Shown one piece after another: positions 1,348-6,014 of a stretch of DNA of 64,000 nucleotides. Location of the stretch: the NCBI RefSeq assembly GCF_030296835.1, contig NZ_AP027922.1, positions 3,224,001-3,288,000 on the forward strand, in the 5' to 3' direction. The notes below the pieces were generated by a model, which saw only the letters and a list, made by a program, of their open reading frames with translations, ran no database searches and was not told the DNA's origin. Made by a program: the position numbers and the translations under genes. Each line of letters begins with the position of its first letter. Within the stretch, counting starts at the first letter, position 1. Source of the DNA: Pseudoalteromonas sp. MM1 (GTDB lineage Bacteria > Pseudomonadota > Gammaproteobacteria > Enterobacterales > Alteromonadaceae).

Positions 1348-2211
1348 TTAGCTCATAGCACTTTGCAGCTTTTTCATCGCTGTTTTTTCTAGCTGGCGAA
1401 CACGCTCAGCAGATACACTGTACTTTTCTGCAAGCTCTTGAAGTGTTGCTTTGTCATCAGACAACCAGCGCGCACTTACAATGTCTTGCGAGCGTTCATC
1501 TAGCGTTTTAAGTGCGCTAAATAAACGAGTATGTGACTGCTCTTGCCATTGTTGCTGCTCAATATCGTCAGCTAAATCGGCAGAGCCATCTGTTAAATAT
1601 TGTACTGGTGAATACGTACTTGTTGGCGCGTCGTCGTTATCGTCGCCCGTTAAGTCAAAGCCCATGTCTTGGCCGCTCATGCGCGATTCCATTTCACGAA
1701 CTTCTTTTTCACTCACACCTAGCTCATTCGCTACAGTGCTCACTTCTGCTTGGTTAAACCAACCTAAACGTTTTTTGTTTTTACGAAGATTAAAAAACAA
1801 TTTACGTTGCGCTTTAGTGGTCGCAACTTTTACGATGCGCCAGTTTTTAAGCACAAACTCATGAATTTCTGCTTTAATCCAATGAACAGCAAACGATACT
1901 AAGCGTACACCCACACTTGGGTCAAAGCGCTTAACGGCTTTCATCAGGCCTATATTGCCCTCTTGGATTAAATCGGCTTGTGGCAAACCATACCCCGAGT
2001 AGCTTTTAGCAATATGTGCTACAAAGCGTAAATGCGACATAATGAGTTGCTTTGCAGCACTAAGATCGCCTTCTTCTTGAAGTCGTGTTGCTAGCTCTTT
2101 CTCTTGTTCAGCTTTAAGCATAGGAATTGTGCTAACCGCTTGAAGGTAGCCGTCCATGCTTGCGCTTTGTTGCCCAACTGTAAGTGCCATTGCGTATAAA
2201 TCTTTACTCAT
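1348..2211 (-). CDS. rpoH: RNA polymerase heat-shock sigma factor (sigma-32)
   Basis: A 287-residue sigma-70 family factor, close to the usual 284 of sigma-32. It directs RNA polymerase to chaperone and protease promoters. Region 2 is visible as [14 protein letters not shown] (residues 80-93). The RpoH-specific box QRKLFFNLR (135-143) separates it from other sigma factors. Region 4 with the helix-turn-helix is at the C-terminus ([14 protein letters not shown]). The start is preceded by GAGGTG at a good distance. It lies downstream of ftsX on the same strand, the classical gene order, but with a 260-base gap that contains its own promoter and a perfect CIRCE operator. That implies repression by HrcA as well as any RNA-level control. 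Confidence 0.97.
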
Positions 2212-2244
2212 TTTTCACCTCGGTGATAAACATTTGAAACCATC

Positions 2245-2271
2245 TTAGCACTCTTTCTCTAAGAGTGCTAA
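2245..2271. promoter_or_regulatory. CIRCE operator (HrcA binding site) in front of rpoH
   Basis: The 27-bp sequence is TTAGCACTC, nine bases, GAGTGCTAA. This is an exact match to the CIRCE consensus bound by the heat-shock repressor HrcA. It sits 34-60 bases upstream of the rpoH start codon and overlaps the predicted transcription start, where CIRCE elements usually lie. HrcA itself is not encoded in this window. Confidence 0.92.
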
Positions 2272-2276
2272 CCCCA

Positions 2277-2305
2277 ATTTAAAACTTTTTTTAAGAGTAA
2301 ATCAA
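2277..2305 (-). promoter_or_regulatory. Candidate sigma-70 promoter of rpoH
   Basis: Read on the minus strand, TTGATT and TTAAAT are 17 bases apart, each 4 of 6 matches to consensus. The predicted start point falls in the first bases of the CIRCE operator, so bound HrcA would block it. Predicted by eye only. Confidence 0.45.
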
Positions 2306-2471: not shown

Positions 2472-3458
2472 TTACACTTTGTCTGGCTCAATTTCTTTAA
2501 TATATCGGTTAACCGATAAGTAAGAACCAATAAAGCCTAAGCTAGTTGCAAGTAAAACTAATGCCCCAAACTCATTAAGCGTTAAACCAATTAACGAAAA
2601 GCTTGTTTGATACACGCCCGCAACGCTGCTTACTGCACTAGTTAACCACCACATCATTAAGGCAATACAAATAAATGCAAACAAGCCCCCTATAACGCCA
2701 TACCAAATGCCGGTCCACAAAAATGGAGCGTGTATAAACGTATTAGTAGCTCCCACTAGCTTCATTACTTGTATTTCTTCTTTTTTATCCATAATCGATA
2801 AACGAATTGTATTACCAATAATAAGTGTAACGGATGTAAGAAGTAATAAAGCAATTGTGATAACGCTTTCTTTTAATAAATCTAATAATGCATTTAGGCG
2901 CTCAAGCCAGGCAATATCAAGCTTACCAAAGTCTACTTCGCGCTCGCTTTCAAGTTTAGTAAGCAGTGCTTTAGCTGCATTGGGCTGGCGATGTCGTTTA
3001 GTAGGTGTCACTAATACAACATCGGGTAGCGGGTTGCTATCTAGGTATTCTAAAGCTTGTCCAAACCCCGACACATCTTTAAATTCAGTTAGTGCTTGCT
3101 GCTTAGAAATAAATTCAACACTGTCTACCTCGGCGTAAAGTGCTAAACGCTTTACTAAGGTTTGTGTTTCTTGCTCGCTCATACTTTCTTTTACAAAAAG
3201 CGATATTTCACTGGCTTCTTCAAACCCGCTACTAACTTGTTGTACATTTTTTACGACTAAATACAGCGTAGCAGGTAATGTTAAACTTAGGCCAAGTACA
3301 GCAATTGTCATTAATGAAGCAAGTGGCGTACGCCACATTTCACCTAAGCTGTGCACCCCTTGGCGAAAAATATTAATAATAAAAAAATAACCACCCGCTA
3401 TGGCTGATTTTTTTTGTTTATCGTTTGAGTTTTGGCGCCCTTTAAATAACAAACTCAC
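2472..3458 (-). CDS. ftsX: Cell division ABC transporter-like permease FtsX
   Basis: A 328-residue inner membrane protein with the FtsX layout: a cytoplasmic N-terminus, one membrane segment near residues 46-69, a periplasmic domain, then three more segments near 196-222, 246-275 and 292-315. With FtsE it forms the divisome complex that activates periplasmic murein hydrolases through EnvC. The gene overlaps ftsE by 4 bases, so the two are translationally coupled. It is followed by rpoH, as in enterobacteria. Confidence 0.96.
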   Translation of the reverse strand: MSLLFKGRQNSNDKQKKSAIAGGYFFIINIFRQGVHSLGEMWRTPLASLMTIAVLGLSLTLPATLYLVVKNVQQVSSGFEEASEISLFVKESMSEQETQTLVKRLALYAEVDSVEFISKQQALTEFKDVSGFGQALEYLDSNPLPDVVLVTPTKRHRQPNAAKALLTKLESEREVDFGKLDIAWLERLNALLDLLKESVITIALLLLTSVTLIIGNTIRLSIMDKKEEIQVMKLVGATNTFIHAPFLWTGIWYGVIGGLFAFICIALMMWWLTSAVSSVAGVYQTSFSLIGLTLNEFGALVLLATSLGFIGSYLSVNRYIKEIEPDKV

Positions 3459-4132
3459 AGTGTCCCCTCCGCAAGTGGGTCTTCAAGCATACGGCCATCT
3501 TTTAAAGTCAGGCTACGGTATTTTAAACGCGACACTAAACCAAGGTCGTGCGTTGCTATAAGTACTGTCGTACCGTGTTTATTAAAATCTTCAAATAGCC
3601 TTAATATTTCCATAGAGAGCTCAGGGTCAAGGTTACCCGTTGGTTCATCGGCCAATAAAATAGGCGGAGAATTTACAATTGCTCTGGCAATGCCTACGCG
3701 TTGCTGCTCACCACCAGAGAGTGTAGAAGGATGGCATTTAACTTTATCTAGCAACCCTACTTTATCTAGCGCACCATGAACTCGTTTAGCTATTTGCTTA
3801 TGATGGGTGCCTTCAATAATCAACGGCAGTGCCACGTTATCAAACACAGTGTAGCGCTCTAACAAACGATGATTTTGAAAAATAATACCAATATCGCGTC
3901 GCGCATAAGGAATTTGCCGAGAATTAACTTTATTTAAATCAACTCCATTAATTAACACGTTTCCTGCAGAGGGGCGCTCCATTAAGCTAATGAGCTTTAA
4001 TAAGGTACTTTTACCTGCACCACTGTGACCGGTTAAAAAAGCCAACTCGCCAGGCTTAATATGAAATGTAACTTTTTCGAGAGCGCGATGCCCACCCGGA
4101 TAGGTTTTACTTACTTGCTGAAAATTTATCAT
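3455..4132 (-). CDS. ftsE: Cell division ATP-binding protein FtsE
   Basis: A 225-residue ABC ATPase. Walker A is GHSGAGKS (residues 35-42), the signature is LSGGEQQR (138-145) and Walker B is PILLADEPTGNLD (157-169). All catalytic motifs are intact. It partners FtsX at the division septum, and its stop overlaps the ftsX start. A hairpin with the form of a terminator separates it from ftsY upstream, so ftsEX may have its own promoter in the 76-base gap. Confidence 0.97.
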   Translation of the reverse strand: MINFQQVSKTYPGGHRALEKVTFHIKPGELAFLTGHSGAGKSTLLKLISLMERPSAGNVLINGVDLNKVNSRQIPYARRDIGIIFQNHRLLERYTVFDNVALPLIIEGTHHKQIAKRVHGALDKVGLLDKVKCHPSTLSGGEQQRVGIARAIVNSPPILLADEPTGNLDPELSMEILRLFEDFNKHGTTVLIATHDLGLVSRLKYRSLTLKDGRMLEDPLAEGTL

Positions 4133-4208: not shown

Positions 4209-6014
4209 TTATACATCACCCTCGTCTTGGCTAAATAACGCATCAATAAAGTCGTCGCTCTTAAACGCACGCAAGTCATCAATACCTTCTCCTACACCAA
4301 TGTAACGAATAGGAATATTAAATTTATCTGCAACCGCAAATATAACCCCACCTTTAGCCGTACCATCAAGTTTTGAAAGAGTAATACCAGTTAAACCAAC
4401 ACACTGGTTAAATAAGTTTACTTGGCTAATTGCATTTTGACCTGTACCAGCATCAATGGTTAGCATAACTTCATGCGGTGCATCGGGGTCAATTTTCTTC
4501 ATTACACGCGCTATTTTTTCAAGCTCTTGCATTAAGTTGTCTTTATTTTGCAAGCGCCCTGCTGTATCGGCAATTAATACATCTACATTACGCGCTTTAG
4601 CGGCTTGAAACGCATCAAATACAACCGATGCGCTATCTGCACCTGTGTGCTGAGCAATAACCGGAATACTATTACGCTCACCCCAAACCTGAAGTTGCTC
4701 AACAGCAGCAGCACGGAATGTGTCACCTGCGGCTAACATAACCGACTTACCTTCATTCTGAAATTGTTTAGCAAGCTTACCTATGGTGGTTGTTTTACCA
4801 ACACCGTTTACGCCTACCATTAAAATAACAAATGGTTTTTTATCTGCGTTTATCTCTAGTGGTTGCTCTGCCGTTTTAAGCATAGCGGCCATTTCTTGTT
4901 TCATTAACTCATAAAGTGCATCACCATCTTTTAGCTGCTTACGATCAGCGGCATCAGTCAGGCTATCAATTAGCTTCATGGTGGTATCAACACCTAAATC
5001 GGCGGTGAGAAGCTGAGTTTCAAGATCTTCAAAAAGATCATCGTCTATTTTTTTACCGCTAAAAATAGAGGCAAAGCCCGAACCTATGTTTACGCGGGTT
5101 TTTAATAAGCCCTTTTTAAGACGGGAGAAAAAGCCTTCTTTTTTAGGCTTTTCGGTAAGTTTAGCTTCTTCTTTTGCCAGTTCGGCCGTTAGGCGCTCTT
5201 GCTCTAATCGCTCAGCCTCTGCTTGTTCTGCTGCAATGCGCTGCTGCTCTAAACGTTCAGCTTCTGCTTGCTCTGCTGCAATACGCTGTTGCTCTAAACG
5301 CTCAGCTTCTGCTTGTTCTGCTGCAATACGCTGTTGCTCTAAACGCTCAGCTTCTGCTTGCTCTGCTGCAATACGTTCTTGCTCTAAACGCTCAGCTTCT
5401 GCCTGTTCTGCTGCAATACGCTGTTGCTCTAAACGCTCAGCTTCTGCTTGCTCTGCTGCAATACTTTCTTGCTCTAGACGCTCAGCTTCAGCTTGTTCTG
5501 CTGCAATACGTTCTTGCTCTAAACGCATTTGCGCTTCTTGCTCTGCCAAACGAGCGGCTTGTGCTTGTTGTTGCGCCTGTGCTTCAGCTTGGTCTTTTGC
5601 AAGTAACTCAGCGTTGGCTTTTTCAATTGCTAATTTTTCATCTTGCTCAGCTTGCTCGCGCTCTGTGTCTAAACGTTGTTGCTCAGCTCGCTGTGCAGCC
5701 ATGCGCTCTTGCTCTAAACGCATTTGCGCTTCTTGCTCAGCTAAACGCGCAGCTTGTGCTTGTTGCTGCGCCTGTGCTTCGGCTTGCTCTTTTGCAAGCA
5801 ACTCTGCATTAGCCTTTTCAATTGCTAAACGCTCTTCTTGTGCTTTTTCAGCAGCAATACGTGCTTGTTCTTCACGCTCTGCTTCGGCCTTTTCTGCCGC
5901 TAAGCGCTCAGATTCTTGTTGCTGAGCTAATGCCTGTTGTTTATCAGCTTCTGCTTGTTTTTTATCTGACTTACCAAAACCGAGCCAAGACATGAATTTA
6001 CTTTTTTTTGCCAT
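4209..6014 (-). CDS. ftsY: Signal recognition particle receptor FtsY, with expanded repetitive N-terminus
   Basis: A 601-residue SRP receptor GTPase that docks ribosome-nascent chains at the membrane, about 100 residues longer than the E. coli protein. The C-terminal NG domain (about 300-601) is complete: G1 GVNGVGKT (401-408), DTAGR (483-487) and SKLD (547-550). The N-terminal A domain (1-290) is a very charged, probably helical region rich in Glu, Ala and Gln. It holds a 43-residue segment present twice (62-104 and 127-169) and then seven tandem 15-residue units (170-274) of the form IAAEQAEAERLEQQR. The extra length is due to these repeats. rsmD is divergent, the usual arrangement. Confidence 0.97.
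   Translation of the reverse strand: MAKKSKFMSWLGFGKSDKKQAEADKQQALAQQQESERLAAEKAEAEREEQARIAAEKAQEERLAIEKANAELLAKEQAEAQAQQQAQAARLAEQEAQMRLEQERMAAQRAEQQRLDTEREQAEQDEKLAIEKANAELLAKDQAEAQAQQQAQAARLAEQEAQMRLEQERIAAEQAEAERLEQESIAAEQAEAERLEQQRIAAEQAEAERLEQERIAAEQAEAERLEQQRIAAEQAEAERLEQQRIAAEQAEAERLEQQRIAAEQAEAERLEQERLTAELAKEEAKLTEKPKKEGFFSRLKKGLLKTRVNIGSGFASIFSGKKIDDDLFEDLETQLLTADLGVDTTMKLIDSLTDAADRKQLKDGDALYELMKQEMAAMLKTAEQPLEINADKKPFVILMVGVNGVGKTTTIGKLAKQFQNEGKSVMLAAGDTFRAAAVEQLQVWGERNSIPVIAQHTGADSASVVFDAFQAAKARNVDVLIADTAGRLQNKDNLMQELEKIARVMKKIDPDAPHEVMLTIDAGTGQNAISQVNLFNQCVGLTGITLSKLDGTAKGGVIFAVADKFNIPIRYIGVGEGIDDLRAFKSDDFIDALFSQDEGDV
5193..5507 (-). repeat. Seven tandem 45-bp repeats inside ftsY
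   Basis: Seven in-frame copies of a 45-bp unit encode IAAEQAEAERLEQ followed by QR, ER or ES. Copies differ at a few, mostly third-position, bases. The period is a multiple of three, so gain or loss of a unit would keep the frame and change the length of the acidic linker. Confidence 0.95.
5508..5831 (-). repeat. Duplicated 129-bp segment inside ftsY
   Basis: Residues 62-104 (bases 5703-5831) and 127-169 (bases 5508-5636) are nearly identical, starting R/K-LAIEKANAELLAK and ending EAQMRLEQER. The second copy runs directly into the tandem 15-residue units, so the A domain grew by both segmental and tandem duplication. Confidence 0.9.

Follow-up and report, generated by a model that had tools for sequence, protein, structure and literature searches.

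A perfect CIRCE operator before rpoH very probably places sigma-32 under the HrcA repressor in Pseudoalteromonas

Results and Discussion

The rpoH locus of Pseudoalteromonas sp. MM1

The window, that is the whole stretch of 64,000 nucleotides that was analysed, carries the rpoH gene on its minus strand, preceded by an inverted repeat and by promoter-like hexamers. The following features were recorded:

1348..2211, minus strand, rpoH, encoding sigma-32 (287 aa)
2211-2209, minus strand, rpoH start codon ATG
2215..2221, minus strand, rpoH Shine-Dalgarno sequence GAGGTGA
2245..2271, no strand assigned, CIRCE operator and predicted HrcA binding site, TTAGCACTC-N9-GAGTGCTAA (9-9-9, 0 mismatches)
2277..2282, minus strand, predicted -10 hexamer of rpoH, TTAAAT
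2300..2305, minus strand, predicted -35 hexamer of rpoH, TTGATT
2472-3458, minus strand, presumably ftsX (from its translation)
3455-4132, minus strand, presumably ftsE (from its translation)
4209-6014, minus strand, presumably ftsY (from its translation)

The preliminary description of this DNA had proposed that an exact CIRCE consensus overlaps the start of rpoH transcription, and both the gene and the operator were borne out. The gene product scores 417.6 bits against TIGR02392 (cut-off 323.1) and 441.5 bits against PRK06596, and no other gene of the genome exceeds the TIGR02392 cut-off. The operator lies in the intergenic region between ftsX and rpoH (minus-strand order ftsY, ftsE, ftsX, rpoH) and is the only exact CIRCE match in the 4,489,222 bases of the genome; it also stands alone genome-wide when two mismatches are allowed. 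In the FtsY-like protein encoded nearby, the N-terminal part consists of many near-identical repeats in succession, for example AEQAEAERLEQQRIA.

Read towards rpoH, the -35 hexamer is followed by 17 nt, the -10 hexamer, 5 nt, CIRCE, 23 nt, the Shine-Dalgarno sequence, 3 nt and the ATG, which leaves 33 nt between CIRCE and the start codon. Since the TTGATT-N17-TTAAAT pair stops 5 nt upstream of CIRCE, the operator covers the predicted rpoH transcription start, as had been suggested; the outer edge of the -35 hexamer, at 2305, is also where the region first singled out had ended. This -35/-10 pair was not among the predictions of a generic promoter scan, and the promoter call therefore rests on position and conservation. 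This conservation was assessed in an alignment of eight Pseudoalteromonas sequences (five survey genomes and three named Pseudoalteromonas), the window's rpoH region being 89% identical to that of Pseudoalteromonas sp. FUC4 and 86% identical to that of P. prydzensis. Both CIRCE arms are identical in all eight sequences, though the loop varies and so does much of the flanking DNA. The Shine-Dalgarno letters are likewise the same in 8/8, CTTG at the -35 hexamer (including the TTG of the hexamer itself) is invariant, and the -10 hexamer keeps a similar place with variable letters.

Relaxing the genome search to three mismatches yielded nine sites, namely the rpoH operator and eight near-identical copies of a 3-mismatch inverted repeat (G000:C1:34715 and seven more, loci L004-L011). 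The two copies that were scanned (L004 and L010) lie about 170 nt upstream of a 16S rRNA gene. These repeats probably lie in rRNA operon leaders and were set aside as further HrcA targets on the basis of these two of the eight.

The HrcA protein of Pseudoalteromonas

The preliminary description had named the lack of an hrcA gene as grounds for rejecting HrcA control of rpoH. The proposal withstood this check, one HrcA match being present in the genome, directly before grpE:

G000:C1:2237678-2238643, minus strand, hrcA, 321-aa frame, upstream of and adjoining grpE, divergent from a gene that we take to be nadK from its translation

The protein passes the Pfam HrcA model (36.6 bits, cut-off 22.2) and falls short of the NCBI equivalog model TIGR00331 (119.5 bits, cut-off 197.2), so that automatic annotation may overlook hrcA here. 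All five Pseudoalteromonas HrcA proteins examined score below the TIGR00331 cut-off, against none of the 20 from other HrcA-bearing genomes of the family. A profile built from 35 HrcA sequences, that of the window genome first, nevertheless aligned with positions 1-328 of the 336 of Thermotoga HrcA (1stz).

The divergence is unevenly spread along the protein. The helix-turn-helix motifs ATVRN and SPHTSAGR are intact in the HrcA of the window genome, and PHTSAGR is present in 5/5 genus proteins and 47/50 others. Compared with the 20 other family members, the five genus proteins share a mean of 42% identity in the helix-turn-helix part and 14.8% in the remainder, versus 62.6% and 40.1% among those 20 themselves. 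The FIGxExG motif, found in 37 of 50 other HrcA proteins, and the IGPxRMxY motif, found in 32 of 50, are both missing from all five genus proteins. These identities and motif counts indicate that the DNA-binding end has been kept while the C-terminal end is greatly changed. Given the absence of the two motifs, the sensing step of Pseudoalteromonas HrcA may differ from that of its relatives. The other four genus proteins are 68-89% identical to that of the window genome, and their frames are open.

The first ATG of the hrcA frame falls less than 10 nt past a sigma-32-like -10 element (L003:8621-8644, minus strand). The internal Met8, where two genus relatives begin, is the likelier start codon judging from this comparison.

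CIRCE at rpoH follows hrcA across the family

Comparison of rpoH upstream regions had been proposed as a check on the HrcA-rpoH link, and we examined 147 genomes of the host family. HrcA was present in 25 of them, and 32 contained at least one CIRCE with two or fewer mismatches. At this threshold CIRCE precedes rpoH in 25/25 HrcA-bearing genomes, and a scan of the same 25 found no site away from rpoH. Loci were examined for 30 of the 32 CIRCE-bearing genomes, and rpoH directly adjoins CIRCE in 25 of the 30; G049, which falls outside these 30, has a pair of CIRCE sites upstream of rpoH, as G113 and G035 also do (in tandem). The resulting 26 genomes comprise the 25 that have HrcA and G110. Other genera share this position of the site ahead of rpoH, and in all 25 HrcA-bearing genomes grpE comes directly after hrcA and nadK is transcribed divergently.

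The 450 nt upstream of rpoH were also scanned in 44 HrcA-less representatives (one each from 43 family genera and one sister-family genome). None had a CIRCE, the best matches showing 5-9 mismatches, within the range of 4-9 seen in shuffled DNA. With CIRCE at rpoH in 25/25 HrcA-bearing genomes and 0/44 HrcA-less ones, the proposed cascade from HrcA to sigma-32 is well supported by comparison. G110 (95% complete) has CIRCE at rpoH and no detected hrcA.

Six further HrcA-less family genomes had CIRCE matches, and in the four inspected (G002, G142, G122 and G123; the other two are G044 and G021) none lay at rpoH. The matches of G002, G142 and G122 fall in the last codons of a gene, presumably that for L-serine dehydratase; that of G123 lies 10 nt past a stop codon, has a near-palindromic loop and resembles a terminator. 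All four were rejected as HrcA targets.

A quick RpoH tree of 69 rows, in which G110 was labelled with the CIRCE bearers, required five hrcA/CIRCE changes, of which well-supported branches force only one. G003, whose extracted stretch was offset by one base, was left out of the tree, although its rpoH upstream region was scanned. The tree is too weak to establish many independent losses, and the counts thus overstate how independent the co-distribution is. In G033, G034, G038, G041, G046 and G049, rpoH is accompanied by another RpoH-like protein, which scores 305-341 bits against TIGR02392.

CIRCE at rpoH in the Gammaproteobacteria

HrcA was present in 270 of the 369 genomes of the class. We sampled 68 HrcA-bearing genomes, one per other family, together with G049; rpoH was found in all 69. 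CIRCE with two or fewer mismatches lies before rpoH in 57 of the 68 genomes of other families. Over the 69, the best site before rpoH had no mismatch in 30 genomes, one in 22, two in 6, three in 3 and at least five (that is, no site) in 8, so that 11/69 lack an rpoH CIRCE at two or fewer mismatches; among the 8 is G178, where one of the two rpoH copies was examined. In comparison, none of 800 shuffles of 40 rpoH upstream regions fell below four mismatches. Among HrcA-less genomes of the class, CIRCE at two or fewer mismatches occurred in 4/18, three of the four being 62-86% complete, and in 1/15 of those at least 90% complete.

A scan of named genomes yielded at least 120 stretches in which an exact CIRCE lies 432-460 nt before an RpoH-box motif; among the 80 matches listed are Pseudoalteromonas (3), Rheinheimera, Alishewanella, Dyella, Nitrosomonas, Variovorax, Limnohabitans, Thioalkalivibrio and Methylomonas. 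CIRCE at rpoH looks common in the class, with E. coli as the apparent exception. The HrcA-rpoH arrangement described beforehand is no local curiosity, being class-wide.

The size of the HrcA regulon was explored in 40 of these genomes by a genome-wide CIRCE search at no more than one mismatch, joined to the positions of rpoH and GroEL (and of hrcA for 19/40). Among the 34 genomes listed with sites, rpoH had one in 31, groESL in 32 and both in 29, while at least 8 had a site at hrcA. Four genomes had one CIRCE site each of unplaced location, and G158 had none at this threshold. In the class, as far as this subset indicates, HrcA usually has groESL and rpoH as its regulon.

An apparent one-gene regulon in the host family

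The host family departs from this pattern. Of its 25 HrcA-bearing genomes, 22 were inspected upstream of groESL and none of these 22 had a CIRCE, the best matches there showing 6-8 mismatches, and hrcA of the window genome has none at three or fewer. The family appears to have kept the CIRCE of rpoH and lost that of groESL, and HrcA seems to control rpoH alone here rather than rpoH plus groESL.

The groESL and hrcA promoters may be read by sigma-32, although the promoters scored here are consensus matches only. The window genome has a sigma-32-like promoter before groESL with one mismatch of 13 positions, equalled by 1/200 shuffles; in the other 19 genomes examined the best match had 1-3 mismatches, three being common by chance. 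Before hrcA, the window genome has a match with two mismatches of 13, and matches at least as good were found in 13/25 family genomes versus 9/500 shuffles, the remaining 12 having nothing better than three mismatches.

Comparison with known systems

Accounts of heat shock in proteobacteria mostly follow E. coli, where translation and the stability of the protein are the main determinants of the sigma-32 level; rpoH is controlled there by an RNA thermosensor, several promoters, and DnaK and FtsH acting on the protein. E. coli shares the rpoH gene itself, also next to genes that we take to be ftsX, ftsE and ftsY. However, it returned no HrcA match alongside its rpoH match when run as one of 14 control genomes, as had been said of it, whereas the window genome has HrcA. 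An Rfam scan of the window's rpoH leader gave no family at a convincing score, and the search for an RNA thermosensor in that leader did not establish one.

RpoH and HrcA also share a genome in Agrobacterium tumefaciens, where work by Nakahigashi et al. 1999 reportedly assigns them, by its title, "differential and independent roles". The two seem to be wired in series here, as opposed to in parallel in that organism.

The HrcA/CIRCE system of Bacillus subtilis and others, which acts at groESL and hrcA-grpE-dnaKJ, has the same operator consensus and the same repressor family. The likeness extends to an operator over the predicted transcription start and to hrcA beside grpE, but rpoH is the sole target found here and groESL is without CIRCE.

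The one report of CIRCE before an rpoH gene that our literature search returned concerns Geobacter sulfurreducens, for which Rodionov et al. 2004 (PMC545781) predicted the same architecture: rpoH is preceded by a perfect CIRCE, placed at -51 relative to the translation start. In that text the site accompanies others at groESL and hrcA-grpE-dnaK-dnaJ and one species is named (PMC545781), whereas no second site accompanies it here, and its place is occupied in many gammaproteobacterial families.

Our literature search, in which subscription papers were thinly covered, returned no account of CIRCE at rpoH in gammaproteobacteria. A survey by Permina and Gelfand 2003 is said, by its title, to treat the sigma-32 and HrcA regulons of beta-, gamma- and epsilonproteobacteria and may well list such sites. 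For both reasons the novelty is limited to scope and the one-gene regulon: the class-wide extent of the arrangement and a single-target regulon with a divergent HrcA are modestly new.

A model for the control of rpoH and its alternatives

We consider it highly likely that the CIRCE described above is a working HrcA operator on a sigma-70-type rpoH promoter, relieved by heat and part of a negative feedback loop; judging from these genome comparisons, the HrcA heat-shock system very probably switches the sigma-32 system. HrcA binding, repression, the heat response and the signal that inactivates HrcA are steps that we infer as follows. The hrcA-grpE unit would supply the HrcA that, at growth temperature, would occupy CIRCE over the transcription start and, as is typical of its family, would block transcription, holding rpoH mRNA low. 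Upon heat shock, HrcA would lose its hold on DNA through lost GroE support, its own heat lability or both, and rpoH mRNA would rise. Both signals have a counterpart in Campylobacter jejuni, where HrcA loses binding on heating and is stimulated by GroE (PMC8533110). Sigma-32 would then transcribe groESL and hrcA-grpE, and the new HrcA and GroE would in consequence shut rpoH down again, closing a negative feedback loop at the level of rpoH transcription. The earlier suggestion that chaperone supply sets the amount of sigma-32 mRNA may hold by analogy with the HrcA of other species; the C-terminal part of the protein is so changed, however, that this should not be taken for granted.

One could argue that CIRCE acts mainly as a hairpin in the 5' leader of rpoH mRNA, where it would set how stable the message is or how well it is translated, and that HrcA binds it only secondarily or not at all. 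The leader RNA does fold, by computation, into an 11-bp CIRCE hairpin, and the sites deviate from consensus in a way that is asymmetric with respect to transcription. We counted such changes in loci L096-L164 and L196-L225, at the CIRCE sites upstream of rpoH and groESL. The upstream-arm change A3>G, with which the RNA can still form a G-U pair, was seen 18 times and the mirror change T25>C once at 61 rpoH sites (two-sided sign test, 7.6e-5); at 26 groESL sites the counts were 7 and 1. Such asymmetry is unexpected from a symmetric protein site and might come from the leader-RNA G-U pair or from an initiating purine. However, RNA pairing is lost in 14 of the 39 pairs that are changed at rpoH sites, the leader as a whole folds no better than shuffled sequences (minimum free energy, z -1.19), and an element acting as RNA only would have no need to track hrcA as CIRCE does. 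We regard this explanation as unlikely.

Still less probable is that the operator is a decaying relic through which the divergent Pseudoalteromonas HrcA no longer represses. The strong divergence of the protein, with its common C-terminal motifs gone, and the lack of any second CIRCE at two or fewer mismatches in the genome would fit such decay, but the arms are letter-perfect in 8/8 genus sequences though loop and flanks differ, and the genus hrcA frames are open (68-89% identity) with DNA-binding motifs kept in 5/5. The probability of a chance match without function is negligible: nothing was found in its favour, shuffled windows yield a mean of 0.05 matches at three or fewer mismatches against the one seen in this window, which has none, and other genera carry CIRCE in the matching position ahead of rpoH.

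Returning to the operator reading, a further step can be proposed, although we would sooner doubt than assert the whole of it. Pseudoalteromonas HrcA might be a dedicated repressor of rpoH, with a one-gene regulon and a rebuilt C-terminal sensor that does not read GroE in the usual way; sigma-32 would then have a transcriptional thermostat of its own, with the two systems in series. The link from HrcA to rpoH might be ancestral in the class, in which case loss of the repressor would have left behind the scheme now seen in E. coli. If most HrcA-bearing gammaproteobacteria are wired in this manner, sigma-32 would be subordinate, in much of the class, to a repressor that senses GroE or heat, and the state of E. 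coli would be a reduced one. The host family isolates the HrcA-rpoH link: no other CIRCE was found in the window genome, so that loss of hrcA should leave groESL without a direct effect.

Minor features of the rpoH upstream region

The Shine-Dalgarno sequence of rpoH is spanned by a mini-hairpin, UCAC-YGAG-GUGA (window positions 2215-2226, minus strand), which is invariant except for Y in 8/8 genus sequences. Its stem of 4 bp is too short for a convincing thermosensor. Upstream of CIRCE, Rheinheimera, Alishewanella and several other family genera carry AGATCT followed by A-rich DNA. This stretch begins about 26 nt before the rpoH CIRCE (L277, L323, L016, L017 and others) and occupies the place of the spacer between the Pseudoalteromonas -35 and -10 hexamers.
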